Part shown: positions 506-9,361 of the stretch, piece by piece
How the letters are laid out: each line of letters starts with the position of its first letter
Numbering within the stretch: position 1 is the stretch's first letter
Source: Prevotella sp.
GTDB taxonomy: Bacteria; Bacteroidota; Bacteroidia; Bacteroidales; Bacteroidaceae
Reading direction: 5' to 3'
Assembly: GCA_017619375.1 (NCBI GenBank)
Contig: JAFZSL010000038.1
Location: 1 to 64,000, forward strand
Length of the DNA: 64,000 bases
Notes under the pieces: generated by a model
What the model was told of the DNA's origin: nothing
What the model saw: the letters and a program-made list of their open reading frames with translations, nothing else
Databases searched by the model: none
Translations under genes and position numbers: made by a program

Positions 506-3500
506 ATGAAAAACAAATCTGCATTTTCATCATTCATGGCCCGGACGGTCATGATGCTGTTCGTGGCATTGCTCGGCTCCACCCAAGGGGTGTGGGGCAA
601 GGACTTCATCACCGACGTGATGGTCATCGGCAACAGCGACAAGACGAAGTTTTACAATTTGGAGAACAACCTAAAGAACCAGGGTTGGATTGCCATCGAC
701 TATGACCTGAACAAAGGCTGCGGCGACGGCAGCGATTACATCCACCTGCTCTACAAGAAGCAGAGCAGTTCTGGCAGCAGTGGCACACCCATCACCGACT
801 TCTACATCAAGACGGGCAAGAATCCCCCCCAAAAGCTTTCCCACGACGGGCGCACCTATTACCGTGTGTCCTGCCAAGGCAGTGAAGACTTCGTCAACAG
901 TTATGGCGACCTGAACAACAATGCGGTAGGCGACTACATATTCCTCTATTACACCAAGGATGCCTTGCCTGACTACAACGCCGTCACCGGCATCACCTTC
1001 AACGACACCAAGAGCGGTGCCTTAGGCGCAAATGGCGGCACCACCGGCTACGACCTGAATGCGGGATGCGGCTCAGGCACCGCCTACATCTACATGCACG
1101 TCACCAAATCGCGAGCGCCTGTGGAACTGACCTCCTCGACTGCCAAGGTGACGCTGATAGACGGCGACGTGGTCTTCGGCATGGGAGGGCAGGAAACCCA
1201 CGTCACCATTGCCGACGGCGCCACGGTGACGCTGAGCGGCGTGGACATCACCGCCATCCCCAATGATGACAGCCACAAGTGGCCAGGCATCACCTGTCTG
1301 GGCGACGCCAACATCATCCTTGCCGAGGGGACGACAAACAAGGTAAAGGGAGGTCGTGATAATTCCGGCATCTTCGTTCCCGAGGGGCATACACTCACCA
1401 TAAGTGGCGATGGTTCACTTGACGCTAAAGGCAGCTCTAACGGCGCAGGCATAGGAGGCGGCTTTCAGATTTCTTGTGGCAAAATCGTCATCAAGGGTGG
1501 CAACATCACAGCCACAGGGCTTCTTAGTGCTTCAGGCATTGGTAGTAGTAAATGGTGTTCATGTGGCGACATCGTCATCGAGGGGGGCAACATCACTGCC
1601 ACAGCAACAGGCAACTCAGCAGGCATTGGTAGTAGTGAAGGGGGCTCATGTAATAACATCGTCATCGATGGTGGCAACATCACTGCCACGGGTGGTAGTG
1701 CCTCAGCGGGCATTGGCAGCGGCTATAATGGCTCTTGCGGCGACATCGTCATCGGCGATGGCATCATCCGTGTCAATGCCACAATGGGCGGTAATGCTTG
1801 GACTGCCATCGGTCCCGGTATTTACGGCAGTTGTGGCAACATCACCATCGCCCCAAGCATCATCGACTTGAACACAGGAAAGACCCGTATGCTCTTCCAT
1901 TTGCAGCCCTTCAACTCCAGCAACGACAAACTATATACGCTGACGAGCAAGCGTGGCGGGCTTGTGATGAACGCCGAAGGCACGGGGCTGGCGGCCGGAC
2001 AGACACGGACAAATGCGCCTGACGAGGACAAACGCTTCGCCATCATCACCTACGACGGCAAGCAATACCTCTATAGTCCGAGAGCGAAAATGTTCCTTCG
2101 CCACGACGGCACCTTCGTACGACGACTGGAATCACCCATCATCATAGATGGAAGCATTCCTTACGGAGACTACAAGTATATGATGTACATAAACAATGAC
2201 GACGGTGCGCTCCTGGCCTTCAACAACAAAGACAACAACATAGAAATCAACGATTGGTACACCCCTGACGACGGCAACCGCTGGCGCATCGACCCGGTGG
2301 CCGACTTCGACCCATCAGAGGTACTGTCCAGAATTTGCTTGAACAGTGAAACCGGCGAAGTGACATTTTACGACGGCGACGTTATCACCGGCACGGGCGG
2401 CATGAACACCCACGTGTTCATTGCCGACGGCGCCACGGTGACGCTGAGCGGCGTGGACATCACCGCCATCCCCAATGATGACAGCCACAAGTGGCCAGGC
2501 ATCACCTGTCTGGGCGACGCCAACATCATCCTTGCCGACGGGACGACAAACAAGGTAAAGGGAGGTCGTAATAATTCCGGCATCTTCGTTCCCGAGGGGC
2601 ATACACTCACCATAAGTGGCGAAGGTTCGCTTGACGCCAAAGGCGACACATATGGCGCAGGCATTGGTAGCGGCCATGAAAGCCCATGTGGCAACATCGT
2701 CATCAAGGGTGGCAATATCACTGCCACGGGAGACGACTATTCTGCAGGTATAGGAAGCGGCGATTATGGCTCTTGCGGCGACATCGTCATCAAGGGGGGC
2801 AACATCACTGCCACGGGGGGCTACTATCCTGCAGGCATTGGTAGCGGCTATAGAGGCTCATGTGGCGACATCGTCATCGAGGGGGGCAACATCACTGCTA
2901 TAGGAACAGGATCCTCGACGGGCATCGGCAGCGGCTATTATGGCTCTTGCGGCGACATCGTCATCGGCGATGGCATCATCCGTGTCACAGCCACGATGGG
3001 CGGATTTGCTTGGACTGCCATCGGTCCCGGTATTTACGGCAGTTGTGGCACCATCACCATCGCCCCAAGCATCATCGACTTGAACACTGGCAAGACCCGT
3101 GTGCTCTTCCCCATAAAGCCCTTCAACTCCAGCAACGACAAACTATACACGCTGACGAGCAAGCGCGGCGGACTGGTGATGAACGCCGAAGGCACGGGGC
3201 TGGCGGCCGGACAGGCACGGACAAATGCGCCTGACGAGGACAAGCGCTTCGCCATCATCAACTACGACGGCAAGCAATACCTCTATAGTCCGAGAGCGAA
3301 AATGTTCCTTCGCCATGACGGCACCTTCGTCCGCCGTCTGGGGACACCCATTATCATCGACGGAAACAATCCTGACGGAGACTACCAATACATGCTGTTC
3401 ATGAAGAATGACGACGGTGCGCTTCTGGCCTTCAACAACAACAACAACAACATCGAAATCAACGATTGGCACACCCCCGACGACGGCAACCGCTGGCACA

Positions 3501-5119
3501 TCAAACAAGTGGCCGACTTCGACCCGAAAGAGGCGCTCCTCATCGCCGGGTTGAAACTGCATGACAACGGCAGCAACGCGGAGGCCATCGCCGAAAACAA
3601 CAACAGTTTCGCCAACGTGGTGTTGAGCGGCCGCACGCTCTACCGCGACGGCACGTGGAACACGTTGTGCCTGCCCTTCGACGTGAATGATTTCGCCGGC
3701 ACGCCGCTCGAAGGATTCACCGTGATGGAACTCGACACCGAGACTGCCCTAAACGGCCACAAGACAGGTTTCGATATGATAGACATTGCTTACTACTTGA
3801 ACTTCAAGCCTGCCACGAGCATCAAGGCCGGTACCCCCTATATCGTGAGGCATAATGCCGAATACCAAAATGTCATCGGCTCGACAGACGACTGGAATGC
3901 CTTTGCCACCAACGTGGCGAATGGCACGACCTACGAGGGACAGGTTGTGCATCTTGTCGCCGACATCACCGTTTCCACCATGGTGGGTACGAGCGACCAT
4001 CGGTTCAAGGGAACCTTCGACGGACAGGGGCATCTGCTGACCCTCGCCAACCTGCCGGCAACAGGGCAGTATTGCGCACCGTTCCGCTATGTGGATGGCG
4101 CCACCATCAAAAACCTGCACACCACAGGCAAACTCACAGCCTCTGACAAGTATCGTTCGGGACTCATCGGCGAGATACGCAACAAGGTCACCATCAGCAA
4201 CTGCTGGAGCAGCGTGACCATCAACAGCAGTGTCAACGGCGACGGCACACACGGCGGATTCATCGGGGAGGTGAAAAGTGGTGGCGATGTCGTCATCGAC
4301 AACTGTCTTTTCGACGGAAGTTTCACAGGCACTTCCACCAACTGCTGGGGCGGTTTCGTGGGCTGGAGCCAAGGTTCTACGACAATCAATAACAGCGCAT
4401 TCCTTCCACAAAGCATCTCATCACTGGACAGTTCAAGCAGCATGACTTTCGGCCGCAACAACGTGAACATAGTGAACTGCTACTACTCAGTGGCTCTCGG
4501 AGAAGCACAAGGCAAGCCTGTCGGCAACAAGACCGCCGAACTATTGGCCGCCGCCCTGGGCAATGACTGGCAGGTGGAAGATGGCAAGGTGGTGCCTGTC
4601 ATAGACAAGAAAAACATCACCGACCCCGTGTTCTATGGAGTGACCGTCAAAAACATCGCACCGACCGCCGTCACCAGTGCCGACGGCGCGGTGACCTTCA
4701 CGGGCAGTTACAATCCCGTCACCCTCAGAGCCAAAGACCACACCAAACTCTTCCTCGCTGCCGCCAACACCCTCCATCATCCCAACGTCAACATGACCGT
4801 CGGCTCATGCCGGGCAAGTTTCCAACTGGCCATCTCCAGCAAGGGCGACGTGAACAGTGACGGCGGACTTACCATCACTGACGTGACGGCGATGGTCGAA
4901 CATATCATAGGAGCCGACGATGGCACCAACACCTTCGTCGCCGCCAATGCCGACCTCAACGGCGATGGAGTCATCACCGTGACCGACGTGGCAGTGCTGG
5001 TGGGTATGATCGCCGATGAGAGCCAGAACCTGAACATAGAGGTCTATTCCGGCGACATCCCCATCACCTACAAAGGCGATGGAAACGGTGCGACGAGAGT
5101 GAAAAAAATTGAAGATTGA
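506..5119 (+). CDS. Large exported surface protein with beta-helix-like repeats and C-terminal dockerin-like EF-hands
   Basis: A 1537-aa protein with an N-terminal signal peptide (hydrophobic stretch about residues 11-31). Two long homologous regions, about residues 215-600 and 620-1000, each hold short repeats of the type GGNITATGG-x-AGIGSG-x-GSCGDIVI, as in extracellular right-handed beta-helix proteins. A module containing WNTLCLPFD follows (about 1030-1110), then a GLUG-like region. The C-terminus has two D-x-N-x-D-G calcium-binding loops (GDVNSDGG and ADLNGDGV), typical of dockerin type I repeats. The same WNTLCLPFD module and EF-hand tail occur in the protein at 55361-57661. Function is unknown. 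Adhesion or glycan binding is inference from architecture only. Start chosen at the ATG before a clear signal peptide. Confidence 0.85.
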   Translation: MKNKSAFSSFMARTVMMLFVALLGSTQGVWGKDFITDVMVIGNSDKTKFYNLENNLKNQGWIAIDYDLNKGCGDGSDYIHLLYKKQSSSGSSGTPITDFYIKTGKNPPQKLSHDGRTYYRVSCQGSEDFVNSYGDLNNNAVGDYIFLYYTKDALPDYNAVTGITFNDTKSGALGANGGTTGYDLNAGCGSGTAYIYMHVTKSRAPVELTSSTAKVTLIDGDVVFGMGGQETHVTIADGATVTLSGVDITAIPNDDSHKWPGITCLGDANIILAEGTTNKVKGGRDNSGIFVPEGHTLTISGDGSLDAKGSSNGAGIGGGFQISCGKIVIKGGNITATGLLSASGIGSSKWCSCGDIVIEGGNITATATGNSAGIGSSEGGSCNNIVIDGGNITATGGSASAGIGSGYNGSCGDIVIGDGIIRVNATMGGNAWTAIGPGIYGSCGNITIAPSIIDLNTGKTRMLFHLQPFNSSNDKLYTLTSKRGGLVMNAEGTGLAAGQTRTNAPDEDKRFAIITYDGKQYLYSPRAKMFLRHDGTFVRRLESPIIIDGSIPYGDYKYMMYINNDDGALLAFNNKDNNIEINDWYTPDDGNRWRIDPVADFDPSEVLSRICLNSETGEVTFYDGDVITGTGGMNTHVFIADGATVTLSGVDITAIPNDDSHKWPGITCLGDANIILADGTTNKVKGGRNNSGIFVPEGHTLTISGEGSLDAKGDTYGAGIGSGHESPCGNIVIKGGNITATGDDYSAGIGSGDYGSCGDIVIKGGNITATGGYYPAGIGSGYRGSCGDIVIEGGNITAIGTGSSTGIGSGYYGSCGDIVIGDGIIRVTATMGGFAWTAIGPGIYGSCGTITIAPSIIDLNTGKTRVLFPIKPFNSSNDKLYTLTSKRGGLVMNAEGTGLAAGQARTNAPDEDKRFAIINYDGKQYLYSPRAKMFLRHDGTFVRRLGTPIIIDGNNPDGDYQYMLFMKNDDGALLAFNNNNNNIEINDWHTPDDGNRWHIKQVADFDPKEALLIAGLKLHDNGSNAEAIAENNNSFANVVLSGRTLYRDGTWNTLCLPFDVNDFAGTPLEGFTVMELDTETALNGHKTGFDMIDIAYYLNFKPATSIKAGTPYIVRHNAEYQNVIGSTDDWNAFATNVANGTTYEGQVVHLVADITVSTMVGTSDHRFKGTFDGQGHLLTLANLPATGQYCAPFRYVDGATIKNLHTTGKLTASDKYRSGLIGEIRNKVTISNCWSSVTINSSVNGDGTHGGFIGEVKSGGDVVIDNCLFDGSFTGTSTNCWGGFVGWSQGSTTINNSAFLPQSISSLDSSSSMTFGRNNVNIVNCYYSVALGEAQGKPVGNKTAELLAAALGNDWQVEDGKVVPVIDKKNITDPVFYGVTVKNIAPTAVTSADGAVTFTGSYNPVTLRAKDHTKLFLAAANTLHHPNVNMTVGSCRASFQLAISSKGDVNSDGGLTITDVTAMVEHIIGADDGTNTFVAANADLNGDGVITVTDVAVLVGMIADESQNLNIEVYSGDIPITYKGDGNGATRVKKIED
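1208..3300 (+). repeat. 1.2-kb tandem duplication inside the surface-protein gene
   Basis: The block starting near 1208 is repeated with an offset of 1212 bp (404 codons) starting near 2420. Stretches of more than 100 bp are nearly identical, for example the segments around 1208-1320 and 2420-2532. Identity falls in the central glycine-rich repeats, where the number and kind of units differ. Confidence 0.85.
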
Positions 5120-5983: not shown

Positions 5984-5995
5984 GGTTTGCATTTG

Positions 5996-6068
5996 TCGGG
6001 ATTACTGGACTCGAACCAGCGACCTCGCGCCCCCCAGACGTGTGCGCTACCAACTGCGCTAAATCCCG
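5996..6068 (-). tRNA. tRNA-Pro (anticodon GGG)
   Basis: Minus-strand cloverleaf of 73 nt: acceptor CGGGATT pairing with AATCCCG, discriminator A, D arm GCGC-AGTTGGTA-GCGC, anticodon loop CTGGGGG with GGG at positions 34-36, variable AGGTC, and T arm GCTGG-TTCGAGT-CCAGT. CCA is not encoded. The anticodon stem CACGT/GCGCG carries one A-C mismatch and one T-G wobble. A consensus promoter lies directly upstream and a strong terminator directly downstream, so this is a single-gene tRNA unit. Confidence 0.95.
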
Positions 6069-6111: not shown

Positions 6112-6481
6112 TTTTCAAGCAGTTTTTTTTGTTTTTTATTGAACTCATTGCTTTTTTGTCGTGCTAAACGCTGCTTTCTAAAACAAATTCAGGGCAGACA
6201 TATGGCAAGTTCTACAAGGACGGTTATTGGGAGACTCTCTACCTGTCTTCGCCCTTCTAAACGAAGGGTGTCCTCCTCGAGGATGCCACCATATAGGTGC
6301 CTCATAGGGAATACTCATCCTTCGACAAGACAAGACAAGACAAGACAAAGCAAGACAAAGCAAGACAAGGCAAGACAACAAACACACAGACGCTCAACTT
6401 CACCGACTAAACCGGGCCGATGAGTTATTACAACAAAGATCCGTATTCCTTCTAAATCACAAGAGAGCGAAGGGAAACCTA
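6112..6481. other. Intergenic stretch without a recognisable gene
   Basis: This region separates the tRNA promoter from the 3' end of the MBL hydrolase gene. It contains a simple-sequence repeat at 6324-6380 and otherwise no feature. The reading frames that cross it look non-coding because they run through the simple repeat. Confidence 0.6.
6324..6380. repeat. CAAGA-type simple-sequence repeat
   Basis: About eleven tandem units of CAAGA or CAAAG (and one CAAGG), for example CAAGACAAGACAAGACAAAG, make a 5-bp/10-bp periodic tract. It lies about 100 bp beyond the stop of the MBL hydrolase gene, outside any convincing CDS. Confidence 0.85.
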
Positions 6482-7324
6482 TTATTTCATTCCGGTCCGG
6501 CTGCTGAAGTTGATACGTACCCCCTTGTCGTCAACCATCATGTCATTGCCTCCGTTATTGCCGTTGCTAAGAGTCGGCTTGCGTTCCCCGTCCAGAATCT
6601 CTCTGCACATGCTCCTGATATCGGAAACACGCTGGAGAGTCTCCAGATTGTCACCACTGTAATGACCAGGAAAGAGGAAATGGATATCATGTTTCTTCAT
6701 ATAGTTCTCTATCCTCTCGGCAGAGTACATTACGGTCGAAAGGTTGGTGAACACCAGCAGGTTGGTTGAACCGAAAGCATCTCCGCTGAACCCATAATGT
6801 CTTGCCTTGTCGAAGAAAGTAGTGCTTCCAGCAGTATGACCAGGGGTAAAGACAACCTCAATCTCACGGTCTCCAAGGTCAATCACCTCACCATCGTGAA
6901 GATACCTGATCTGCCCCTTGTAATTAGGCATGTTATTCGGCACGATGGGGATGTCACCTGCATTCATATAGACCTCAGGGAAAGGCCCTACCCCACCCAC
7001 ATGGTCACCATGTGCATGGGTTGCCACCATGGTGACAGGCTTGGAGATAATCTTTGCCACAATCTTGTCCAGTTCAGGTATGTATGCCCCAGCGTCGATC
7101 AGAAGTGCGCGCTCATTCCCCTCAACGATGTAGAGGGATTCATTATAGACTCTATGGCCATTGCCTATCCATGTATGCTCGTCAAGCTGTCGGAACACCA
7201 CTTCGTCATCTTGATAAACCACTTTGCCGCGAAGGTCACAGCTATTCACATCCGTCCCTTGTGCCCCAACAGCACAAGGCATCAGGCAAAGCAGCATGGC
7301 TGCAAAAAAGTTGTAGGCTTTCAT
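6482..7324 (-). CDS. Exported metallo-beta-lactamase-fold hydrolase
   Basis: The 280-aa product starts at the ATG at 7324, which opens a classical signal peptide (MKAYNFFAAMLLCLMPCAVGA). A longer frame upstream is untranslated leader. MBL-fold metal motifs are visible: the H-x-H-x-D-H signature in THAHGDHVGG, PGHTAGST, SGDAFGS and PGHYSGDN. The family hydrolyses esters, amides or thioesters with a dinuclear metal site. The substrate here is unknown, and export suggests the periplasm. The gene follows the radical SAM gene by 76 bp on the same strand but has its own TATTTTTG promoter box in that gap. A role in the neighbouring peptide system is therefore possible but not shown. Resistance to beta-lactams should not be assumed. 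Confidence 0.85.
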   Translation of the reverse strand: MKAYNFFAAMLLCLMPCAVGAQGTDVNSCDLRGKVVYQDDEVVFRQLDEHTWIGNGHRVYNESLYIVEGNERALLIDAGAYIPELDKIVAKIISKPVTMVATHAHGDHVGGVGPFPEVYMNAGDIPIVPNNMPNYKGQIRYLHDGEVIDLGDREIEVVFTPGHTAGSTTFFDKARHYGFSGDAFGSTNLLVFTNLSTVMYSAERIENYMKKHDIHFLFPGHYSGDNLETLQRVSDIRSMCREILDGERKPTLSNGNNGGNDMMVDDKGVRINFSSRTGMK

Positions 7325-7371
7325 ATTTGTAAAAGTTCTGTATGATATTGGCTTCTTTTCAGTATTTTGTG

Positions 7372-7400: not shown

Positions 7401-8702
7401 TCAATCACCTAATGCGTTTTTACTATAGATTTCAATCATGCCATCAATAAAAGCCTCCTTTTCATATTCACAAAAAGGGCTTGTAGACATGATGTCGCCA
7501 CACTCATGGAAAGATCTCGCCCTGCAAGCTCCTCCGCAAATGTATTTGATAGCACAAGTGGAACAACCTTTGATATTATCGACAGTCATTTTTGCGCATT
7601 TCTCCAGAACAGGAGAATCTGAAATCATTTCCGATATCTTGCCCTCATGGATATTGCCAATAAGGAATTCCGGATAATGAAGCAGTTGGCATGGATATAC
7701 GTCTCCCGACGCAGATATGCTTAATTCAGCTCCTCCTATGGCACACTTACTTCTGCGACATATCAAAGCTTCATCAAGAGTTGACTCACAATAACCAAGT
7801 GGATTCACACCACTTGCCTGTTTCAAAGCTTGATAATATTGCCTGCCGGTAATGGCAATGTCTTCTTTCCCCTTTTTTGCATTTCCTGCAGGAAACAGAG
7901 GCGCGAAATTCAAATTCCCCTTATATTTCTGCGCCATGTTTTCCACATCAGCAATATTCAACTTGTTAACCGTCATTGACAGCATGTAAGGTATCTGATA
8001 ATCCTTCAATAGGGATATCGCATGTTGTGTCCTATCATATGTGTTAGGCCCCCTGAATGTTTCATGTAGCTCTTTTGTACTGCCATCGAGGCTGACAGTG
8101 ACACGTTCGAAATTGTCTTTCACCTTTTGAATATTGCTCTCATCAAGCATGGTGGCATTGGTTAAAAGATCCGTAACGCACCCCCGGCTTTTAATATATG
8201 CTGCAATATGAAAGCAGTCTTTGTTCATCAGAGGTTCACCACCTGTGATGGAAAAGCTAACAGGTCCAAAATGGGACACGACATCATCGACGACATTTTT
8301 GTAGTCATCGAAAGACATCATTCCATGGTGTTCCCTGCGGTCAGTAGCATAACAGTATTTGCAATCAAGATTGCAGGCTTCGGAAATAGAGAGTTGGACA
8401 ATACTTAATTGTTGTCGTTCCTCTTTGACGGGTACACTCCCCTTTTCAGGCATTTCAAAGATTCTGCTGGCAACAGCTTGACGAAAGAATTCCTCGACCT
8501 TTTCACTTAATTCTTCGCCTTGACTCTCGCAAAATGCATCTACAATATCTTCTACACTGGTGGAACCATCACACAAGGACATCAATAATGCCCCATTCTT
8601 ATTTGTTACCAACCATGACGGTATGTCAGGGTTGACAAAGACGATTTTGTCTTTCCGTTCAAATTTTTGAACAGTTGATGGGAGTGACAATATTGTATGC
8701 AT
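7401..8702 (-). CDS. Radical SAM/SPASM peptide maturase with PqqD-like N-terminus
   Basis: A 433-aa protein from the ATG at 8702, which sits 2 nt after the stop of the Cys-rich precursor gene. Residues about 1-90 resemble the PqqD-type RiPP recognition element (an NGALLMSLCDGSTSVEDIVDAF-like helix-turn region). The radical SAM cluster motif C-x3-C-x2-C is at Cys110, Cys114 and Cys117 (CNLDCKYC). The C-terminal SPASM domain shows CAIGGAELSISASGDVYPC and then C-x2-C-x5-C-x3-C (CSTCAIKYICGGAC) plus a final Cys, enough to hold auxiliary 4Fe-4S clusters. This architecture is typical of enzymes that install thioether or C-C crosslinks in ribosomal peptides. That the adjacent repeat protein is the substrate is inferred from gene order. 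The exact subfamily cannot be named from the sequence alone. Confidence 0.9.
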   Translation of the reverse strand: MHTILSLPSTVQKFERKDKIVFVNPDIPSWLVTNKNGALLMSLCDGSTSVEDIVDAFCESQGEELSEKVEEFFRQAVASRIFEMPEKGSVPVKEERQQLSIVQLSISEACNLDCKYCYATDRREHHGMMSFDDYKNVVDDVVSHFGPVSFSITGGEPLMNKDCFHIAAYIKSRGCVTDLLTNATMLDESNIQKVKDNFERVTVSLDGSTKELHETFRGPNTYDRTQHAISLLKDYQIPYMLSMTVNKLNIADVENMAQKYKGNLNFAPLFPAGNAKKGKEDIAITGRQYYQALKQASGVNPLGYCESTLDEALICRRSKCAIGGAELSISASGDVYPCQLLHYPEFLIGNIHEGKISEMISDSPVLEKCAKMTVDNIKGCSTCAIKYICGGACRARSFHECGDIMSTSPFCEYEKEAFIDGMIEIYSKNALGD

Positions 8703-8704
8703 GA

Positions 8705-9361
8705 TTATTTTCCTGCGCAATCGTATGAAGAGCCGCATTTGCCTTTGCCCTGGCTACCTTGACCTGCACATTCATATGAAGAACCGCATTTGCCACCTCC
8801 GCCGGCACAGTCGTATGAAGAGCCACATTTGCCTTTGCCCTGGCTGCCTTGACCCGCACAATCAAAAGAAGAGCCACATTTGCCACCGCCGCCTGCGCAA
8901 TCGTATGAAGAGCCGCATTTGCCTTTGCCCTGGCTGCCTTGACCTGCACATTCATATGAAGAACCGCATTTGCCACCGCCGCCTGCGCAATCGTAAGAAG
9001 AACCACACTTGCCTTTGCCCTGGCTGCCTTGACCCGCACAACCATACGAAGAGCCACATTTCCCACCACCGCCTGCACAGTCGTAAGAAGAACCACACTT
9101 GCCCTTGCCCTGGCTGCCTTGACCCGCACAATTAAAAGACGAGCCACATTTTCCGCCACCGCCAGCGCAATTGTAAGAAGAGCCGCATTCACCCCCAGCG
9201 CCACTACAAGAAAATGAAGTGCTACATTTACCTGTCGCTGTGCTCAAAAGATTTGCAAACGTCTCTTTGGAACCCAAGAACAATCCAGCAGACACCAAGA
9301 ACGTGCTACTAATAAGTTTCTTCAGGAATTTGCGCCTTTCATTATCAAATTGTTCGTTCAT
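8705..9361 (-). CDS. Cys/Gly-rich repeat RiPP precursor candidate with Tat-like leader
   Basis: A 218-aa protein. The leader (residues 1-44) carries a twin-arginine-like motif, ERRKFLKK at 8-15, then a hydrophobic segment and a possible cleavage site near SKETFA. The rest is twelve C-x5-C units, mostly CGSS[YF]xC, with cysteines at 46/52, 59/65, 72/78, 89/95, 102/108, 119/125, 132/138, 149/155, 162/168, 179/185, 192/198 and 209/215. Spacers alternate between AGGGGK and AGQGSQGKGK, giving a 30-residue period. The variable residue before the second Cys is S, N, D, E or G. An alternative ATG lies two codons upstream (9367). The gene leads an operon with the radical SAM/SPASM enzyme, so a modified, exported multi-core peptide is inferred. 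It could instead be an unmodified structural repeat protein. Confidence 0.85.
   Translation of the reverse strand: MNEQFDNERRKFLKKLISSTFLVSAGLFLGSKETFANLLSTATGKCSTSFSCSGAGGECGSSYNCAGGGGKCGSSFNCAGQGSQGKGKCGSSYDCAGGGGKCGSSYGCAGQGSQGKGKCGSSYDCAGGGGKCGSSYECAGQGSQGKGKCGSSYDCAGGGGKCGSSFDCAGQGSQGKGKCGSSYDCAGGGGKCGSSYECAGQGSQGKGKCGSSYDCAGK
8708..9151 (-). repeat. 90-bp tandem repeats coding for the core units
   Basis: Five near-identical 90-bp units. The segment coding for the long spacer recurs at 8741, 8831, 8921, 9011 and 9101, exactly 90 bp apart. Differences between units are mostly synonymous or affect the residue before the second Cys, which suggests recent expansion or homogenisation of the array. 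Confidence 0.95.

Follow-up and report, generated by a model that had tools for sequence, protein, structure and literature searches.

In the literature cited here, the ribosomally synthesized and post-translationally modified peptides (RiPPs) that depend on radical S-adenosylmethionine (SAM) enzymes are mostly short, carry a cleavable leader and have a protease or transporter of their own. The locus we investigated is located in a 64,000-nucleotide stretch of Prevotella sp. DNA (assembly GCA_017619375.1, contig JAFZSL010000038.1, positions 1 to 64,000; hereafter the window), in which a cysteine-rich repeat protein is encoded next to a radical SAM/SPASM enzyme. In contrast to the known systems, the putative substrate is a repeat protein, which in related loci reaches 341 aa and 38 cysteines, its leader resembles an export signal, and nothing else appears to be required at the locus. 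We consider the pair a promising, still unproven, modified-peptide system among the radical SAM RiPPs, with a precursor that no family model covers and a maturase below the cut-off of every NCBIfam maturase model.

The closest solved structure, by profile (140.7 bits) and by predicted model (query TM-score, TMq, 0.66; E 7.5e-18), is CteB of the SCIFF system; however, the two enzymes share 21% identity, the window enzyme reaches 84.0 bits on the SCIFF maturase model TIGR03974 (cut-off 425), and the SCIFF precursor is short, with six cysteines and no repeats. The best NCBIfam model is StsB (NF045574), and in the locus of Streptantibioticus cattleyicolor pSCAT a small Cys/Gly-rich open reading frame (ORF) also lies upstream of the maturase. 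This maturase, however, scores 738 bits on the model against 199.6 for the window enzyme, the Cys cluster next to it is short and unrepeated, and an ABC transporter, by reading of the ORF, lies downstream. The short Cys/Gly-rich ORF on pSCAT (L064:3528-3851, plus strand), which ends in ACSCGCGSGGGGGAGS, is unannotated in the feature table. The identification of StsB with GggB, the streptosactin maturase, was considered and rejected, because the true StsB member is the Streptantibioticus protein, which has a different small Cys/Gly-rich ORF upstream, and because the model is also the top match of control proteins; the comparison with streptosactin is therefore one of spacing.

In streptosactin, GggB forms Calpha thioethers between Cys25 and Ser28 and between Cys31 and Gly34, i.e., in the pattern C-x-x-S-x-x-C-x-x-G (PMC8172795; this and the papers cited below are quoted from the sections available to us). 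The streptococcal GggA/GggB system (PMC8172795; GGG subfamily, PMC13361665) thus has a C-x5-C step and a SPASM maturase, as has the locus described here, and unnested Cys-to-Calpha rings, as proposed for it; however, streptosactin is a 14-mer with one motif as compared to 2 to 19, its cluster includes a protease gene, and a Tat (twin-arginine translocation) leader is not mentioned in these sections. The repeated modification of one motif by a radical SAM enzyme is known from TvgA/TvgB, the source of poly-cyclopropylglycine, but there the motif is TVGG without Cys, the bond is another one, and the cluster contains transporters and an oxygenase (PMC9062424). QhpD, a SPASM enzyme, crosslinks QhpC of quinohemoprotein amine dehydrogenase, a protein subunit that remains a protein; in this case, however, Cys is joined to the methylene carbons of Asp or Glu, and the product is part of an enzyme complex (PMC8172795). 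A general export signal as leader is found in the bufferins and in other RiPPs modified by multinuclear nonheme iron-dependent oxidative enzymes (MNIOs), which are Cys-rich and in some cases very long; their Sec signal peptides are called rare among bacterial RiPPs, and how export waits for modification is described as an open question (PMC12452194). Unlike the system proposed here, these RiPPs use an MNIO instead of a radical SAM enzyme and Sec instead of Tat (the available text of PMC12452194 contains neither "tat" nor "twin-arginine"). Among the Creative Commons-licensed papers in PubMed Central, our targeted searches found none on radical SAM/SPASM RiPPs or sactipeptides with Tat signals, or on StsB sactipeptides, and the word "tat" is absent from the available sections of a paper on RiPP mining in Bacteroidales (PMC10352776).

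The Precursor-Maturase Pair and Its Distribution

The precursor gene (8705..9361, minus strand; start at 9361, stop codon ending at 8705) encodes a protein of 218 aa with twelve C-x5-C units, and all 24 cysteines sit inside these units. Two bases separate its stop codon from the ATG of the maturase gene at 8702, in agreement with a sequence-only reading of the window, which had described the twelve units and the 2-bp gap and had proposed the pair as a RiPP system. That reading gave the units as mostly CGSS[YF]xC, and nine of the twelve are indeed CGSSYxC; CGSSFxC accounts for two more, and CSTSFSC is the first unit. The alternation of short and long spacers that it reported holds from the third spacer onward, where 10 and 6 aa alternate, the first two spacers both being short (6 aa); the strand (minus) had been left unstated. 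The protein begins with MNEQFDNERRKFLKK..., which contains the twin arginine. The leader (residues 1-45; 9227..9361, minus strand) has the motif NERRKFLKK, a hydrophobic stretch and, by motif reading, a signal-peptidase-I-like site, TFA↓N, at a distance of nine residues from the first Cys. In the core (residues 46-218; 8708..9226, minus strand), the twelve units are separated by spacers that are either short and Gly-rich or long and composed of Gly/Gln. At the nucleotide level, Tandem Repeats Finder reports a 90-bp unit in 5.3 copies with 86% matches (score 669). The codons of fixed residues are mixed across the twelve units (Cys1 TGT 7, TGC 5; Cys7 TGT 8, TGC 4; Ser4 TCA 6, TCT 5, TCG 1), which suggests that selection at the protein level, and not fresh duplication, maintains the repeat pattern. 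No family model covers the precursor, as judged from a comparison of seven precursors with NCBIfam and of the window precursor with Pfam.

Two genome sets from the window's family (201 and 399 genomes) were searched for the maturase, together with 395 genomes of its phylum and the GTDB contig collection; further searches covered 86 genomes of the G365 family, 299 genomes of the family of the Polynucleobacter genome and 398 genomes of the latter's phylum, all these sets overlapping in part. At E ≤ 1e-60 the maturase is rare: matches were found in 5 of the 399 window-family genomes, the window's own included, in 2/86 of the G365 family, in 1/299 of the Polynucleobacter family (the query genome itself) and in 2/398 of its phylum (the query genome and G1110). 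We retained 15 different loci from 14 genomes. The members from Prevotellaceae or other Bacteroidales are the window, L005, L006, L007, L016, L017, L018, L022, L023, L063 and L070; the others are L026 and L027 from green sulfur bacteria, L024 from Polynucleobacter finlandensis and L071 from G1110, a pseudomonadote of the same phylum as the L024 genome. The pair is thus hosted by rumen Prevotellaceae, green sulfur bacteria, Polynucleobacter and another pseudomonadote. Genomes G365 and G409 were both taken as green sulfur bacteria because the FMO antenna protein family is present in these two (2/2) as compared to 0/14 control genomes. L005 and L006, and L017 and L018, are near copies of each other; duplicates were not recounted (L019-L021 are the places of L005-L007, and L002, L025, L029, L030, L057-L062 and L067-L069 repeat other loci). 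The member maturases are 35.4 to 84.7% identical to the window enzyme. The L017 genome holds the pair twice, the other copy being L063 (G593), whose maturase is 58.4% identical to that of the window; this is a 5.7-Mb metagenome assembly, and the two copies in it may be paralogues or reflect a mixed assembly.

A six-frame search of 72 sequences for the precursor motif (RR, 25-60 residues, then two C-x5-C units) recovered it at 15/15 member loci and at 0/40 control loci. The pairing, which the sequence-only reading had expected in other Prevotellaceae, is therefore conserved well beyond that family. The 40 controls comprise 11 loci with other radical SAM/SPASM proteins or distant matches (L003, L004, L008-L015 and L028), 26 viral-contig loci and 3 plasmid loci. 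L028 (G457), a maturase match at E 5.9e-60 with no such precursor, was dropped before counting and used as a control; it aligns with 202.9 bits, roughly half of what the green sulfur enzymes reach (403.6 and 404.4), and the four other matches of the system outside the window have a score of at least 403 or 57-62% identity. The best-segment identity of the 26 viral-contig loci is 21-38%, and none has the precursor motif; the 20 plasmid records obtained by tblastn are all below 60% identity, with a best value of 27.6%.

Precursors have between 2 and 19 units, and exactly twelve in 8/15 loci. Between the two green sulfur loci (L026 and L027), the leaders are 88.0% and the maturases 87.7% identical, as compared to 55.1% over the aligned residues of the cores, which have 6 and 4 units. 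As far as can be judged from sequence, a steady leader and a faster-changing core in a dedicated precursor beside the maturase are what characterizes a RiPP of the radical SAM type, and the pair displays this combination.

The Repeat Unit

The unit statistics are based on 151 units from 15 loci, with 36 different 7-mers; units within the same protein do not count as independent observations, and a bias toward small residues is to be expected in Ser/Gly-rich repeats anyway. Cys1, Cys7 and Gly9 are invariant (151/151), and the consensus is C-[GS]-x-[SGA]-x-x-C-x-G. Residue 2 is Gly in 111 and Ser in 40 units, residue 4 is Ser in 130, Gly in 14 and Ala in 7, and residue 8 is Ala, Ser, Gly or Thr, so that C-x-x-[SGA]-x-x-C describes all 151 units. 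Residue 10 is Gly in 80 units, Gln in 54 and another residue in 17. Lys stands just before Cys1 in 103/151 units, this position being occupied by 13 kinds of residues overall. Units are alike inside one genome (L027 has four CGIGAGC, and both units in L024 are CGQSYNC) and different between genomes.

The two positions that had been put forward as crosslink acceptors are loosely constrained. The aromatic position, residue 5, is Tyr in 83 and Phe in 42 units, and also Ile (12), Ala (8) or Ser (6). Residue 6, before the second Cys, is of seven types, with Asp or Glu in 80 units, Ser in 48, Gly in 12, Asn and Thr in 5 each, and Ala in 1. An aromatic or acidic acceptor was rejected because these positions are not conserved, and the residue frequencies point to the aromatic and the variable residue as the least likely acceptors.

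Two precursors have unusual arrangements of units. The longest, in L070 (2790-3815, minus strand; 341 aa, 19 units), has a block of Ile-type units followed by a block of Phe-type units with a Gly-poor linker between them. In L023 (5287-5958, plus strand), CGSGYEC units strictly alternate with CGSS[S]xC units, the second form being without an aromatic residue.

The Maturase

The maturase gene (7401..8702, minus strand, ATG at 8702) encodes 433 aa. An alternative in-frame ATG is located upstream at 8738, and the start at 8702 matches that of the nearest relatives. The assignment to radical SAM/SPASM enzymes with a PqqD-like N-terminus is borne out by Pfam: residues 105-258 (7929..8390, minus strand) form the radical SAM core (PF04055, 86.8 bits) with C110-x3-C114-x2-C117, residues 320-411 (7470..7745, minus strand) form the SPASM region (PF13186, 30.4 bits) with Cys 320, 338, 380, 383, 389, 393 and 411, and residues 23-79 (8466..8636, minus strand) match the PqqD-like domain, of the RiPP recognition element (RRE) type, at 24.4 bits, barely over the cut-off of 23.4 (PF05402). 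The first two domains were found in 11/11 family members; the PqqD-like domain was found in 6/11 at E ≤ 0.01 and is weak in the remainder. The ten cluster cysteines, i.e., the three of the radical SAM motif and the seven of the SPASM region, are kept in 15/15 maturases.

Many SPASM models of NCBIfam match the enzyme, and none comes close to its own cut-off. All 11 maturases scanned have StsB as their top model, with matches that span nearly the full length, the window enzyme being far below the cut-off of 625 bits. The second SCIFF/ranthipeptide maturase model (NF047865; 90.0 bits, cut-off 340), the maturase model of the ACGX system (TIGR04340; 82.4 bits, cut-off 400), the anaerobic sulfatase maturase model (TIGR03942; 112.5 bits, cut-off 349.45) and the QhpD-type model (75.3 bits, cut-off 453) are likewise not reached by the window enzyme.

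In the profile search of PDB with the maturase, CteB ranks first, followed by anaerobic sulfatase maturating enzymes (anSMEs; 85.3 bits) and SkfB (76.0). The AlphaFold model (mean predicted local distance difference test, pLDDT, 79.6; predicted TM-score, pTM, 0.77) gave the same first match in Foldseek by E-value, with TMq 0.65 for TigE and 0.54-0.59 for anSME chains. The enzyme is therefore closer to thioether maturases than to anSMEs, in line with its reading as a peptide maturase; a clustering with anSMEs, which would have spoken against that reading, was not observed.

The Leader

The leader had been described as Tat-like, and a twin arginine followed by a hydrophobic stretch is present in 15/15 leaders. 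The motif [S/E/D/T]-R-R-x-F-[LF] is found in 14/15, the exception being Polynucleobacter with TTRRAIK. The window's own genome encodes TatC, the part of the TatABC question that we followed, as do 12/12 other carrier genomes searched (all carriers but G1110). All 15 precursors have an [AVSTIL]-x-A site after the hydrophobic stretch and ahead of the first Cys, which may be a signal peptidase I site as judged from sequence; in 9/15 it is a strict A-x-A, and in L026, L027 and L071 an ANA lies one residue ahead of the first Cys.

Proposed Mechanism and Alternatives

On balance we favor, with some reservation, a two-gene RiPP-type system in which the leader doubles as a Tat signal, the cysteines are turned into thioethers by the maturase, and the product is exported by Tat and trimmed by signal peptidase I. 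The PqqD-type domain of the maturase would bind the precursor leader in the cytoplasm, and the enzyme, with its radical SAM core and two auxiliary clusters in the SPASM domain, would work along the tandem units and join Cys sulfur to a small residue. The bond would most likely be made at the alpha carbon, from Cys1 to residue 4 (Ser/Gly/Ala), with Cys7 joined to the Gly-rich stretch behind it (Gly 9 or residue 10). Because streptosactin shares the C-x-x-S-x-x-C step, Cys1 to residue 4 is a first guess by analogy; as acceptor for Cys7, Gly9 would be the better-conserved alternative to Gly 10. Tat would carry the finished chain out, and the general signal peptidase I would cut the leader off near the first Cys; with export and trimming provided in this way, the locus would need no protease or transporter of its own. 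Since Tat handles folded cargo, the rings could be finished before export, which would address the timing problem faced by Sec-dependent RiPPs. The product would be a protein-sized string of small rings, with up to 24 thioethers in the window, located in the periplasm or beyond.

Put more broadly, the pair may represent a RiPP class with a Tat-signal leader and signal peptidase I as leader peptidase, in which a precursor and a radical SAM gene suffice, the number of units varies from 2 to 19, and the sequence is free around the consensus; being self-contained, the pair would have moved between Bacteroidota, green sulfur bacteria and Pseudomonadota. We regard this broader reading as evenly poised. 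As to the biological role, the weakest part of the interpretation, our preferred guess is a stable chain outside the cytoplasm that serves in binding or protection; a bacteriocin seems less likely, given that the loci have no immunity, transporter or protease gene in common. If the interpretation is correct, the substrate range of radical SAM enzymes extends to secreted repeat proteins, the natural substrates with 2 to 19 units provide a built-in test of processivity, and the pair provides a minimal module, of two genes, with which crosslinked peptide chains can be made. With two units and 77 aa, the precursor of Polynucleobacter lends itself to a direct test of the chemistry; the four-unit green sulfur product has 101 aa.

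Several observations count against the two-gene system as proposed. The crosslinking chemistry is deduced from sequence and analogy, and the second streptosactin-type acceptor, Gly 10, fits just 80/151 units, 54 having Gln. As a Tat motif, TTRRAIK in the Polynucleobacter leader is weak. Of seven precursors scanned with TIGR01409, the Tat model of NCBIfam, one (L023) exceeds the cut-off, and the window precursor gave no match. TatC is common anyway (154/191 genomes of the family), and its presence in the carriers therefore amounts to agreement, not proof. The StsB model is unspecific: ten radical SAM controls other than the true StsB member have E ≤ 1e-18, and for six of these (L009, L010, L012, L013, L014 and L028) it is the top match; L028 outscores the window enzyme on it (205.9 vs. 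199.6 bits). The branch that sets the 15 maturases against eight other proteins has a support of only 51/46, and a single origin of the 15 is thus not established. AlphaFold predicts no fold for the unmodified window precursor (mean pLDDT 41.0, pTM 0.23), which is expected if crosslinks give the chain its shape, but for a Gly/Ser/Cys-rich repeat with nine sequences a low score is weak evidence.

The same system might make another bond, with Cys joined to beta or gamma carbons as in ranthipeptides, or with a different crosslink between unit and spacer, instead of the Calpha bond at residue 4. Such a bond has precedents in CteB, the closest solved relative, which makes a gamma-thioether (PMC10352776), and in QhpD with its methylene carbons of Asp or Glu in a whole protein subunit (PMC8172795), and Asp or Glu often precedes the second Cys (80/151 units). 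However, the same position also holds the five other residue types listed above, and the CGIGAGC units of the four-unit green sulfur precursor lack Asp, Glu, Thr and Ser altogether and thus offer no fixed beta or gamma acceptor; furthermore, the window enzyme is far below the cut-offs of the PapB (90.0 vs. 340 bits), SCIFF and QhpD-type models. We consider a different thioether unlikely, and about equally so the explanation that the precursor is a Tat-exported thiol/disulfide or metal-binding repeat protein, with the radical SAM enzyme responsible for epimerization, a single activating modification or loading and not for Cys chemistry. Disulfides or soft-metal sites would be compatible with C-x5-C pairs, copper is bound by the Cys-rich bufferins, which are exported by Sec (PMC12452194), and epimerases occur among SPASM-like enzymes, EpeE being among the Foldseek matches. 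With E-values of 9.7e-9 or worse, however, the EpeE-type matches rank behind CteB (7.5e-18), no metal-related gene is common to the neighbors of the 14 loci compared, and a disulfide alone leaves unexplained why all 24 cysteines lie in units and are kept together with Gly9 and a small residue 4.

That the chain is instead a multi-core RiPP, cut in the spacers into many small peptides such as antimicrobials, would fit the near-copy units and the frequent Lys ahead of the first Cys (103/151), a possible cutting site. Yet 13 kinds of residues occur before Cys1, and Lys is never found there in precursors such as those of Polynucleobacter and G1110 or the one with CGIGAGC units; the loci have no protease, immunity or transporter gene in common, and the number of units is exactly twelve in 8/15; we regard this explanation as improbable, and Lys-directed cutting was rejected because the residue before Cys1 is not conserved. 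Finally, the two genes could be chance neighbors, the enzyme acting on another substrate, but their pairing at 15/15 loci against 0/40 controls, in varied surroundings and in at least three distant lineages, makes coincidence hardly credible.

Gene Neighborhood and Other Observations in the Window

The neighborhoods of 14 loci (all but L071) were compared by blastp of their ORFs, with flanks of 1.5 kb in L026, L027, L063 and L070 and of up to 6 kb elsewhere. Maturase and precursor are the sole genes common to more than two of these loci, and no recurrent protease, transporter or immunity gene was found among them. Flanks are shared by pairs of near relatives (L017/L018, L019/L020 and L026/L027), and a pyridoxamine-phosphate-oxidase-like gene is common to the window and L021 only. 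The maturase is immediately followed, likewise on the minus strand, by a metallo-beta-lactamase-fold gene (6482-7327; 60.1 bits), which was rejected as part of the system because it is absent from the genes shared with the relatives. Beside it, about 11 GACAA repeats (6324-6378) form a possible slippage site.

Elsewhere in the window, a gene at 506-5119 (plus strand) encodes a protein of 1537 aa in which a stretch of 29 residues (87 bp) is repeated in tandem at 1471-1716 and at 2657-2965; its C-terminal stretch has a look that we take, from the motif, to be dockerin-like. The sole tRNA found in the 64 kb is a tRNA-Pro (ggg) at 5995-6068 (minus strand), and GATTGAA repeats occupy the window edge (1-66).

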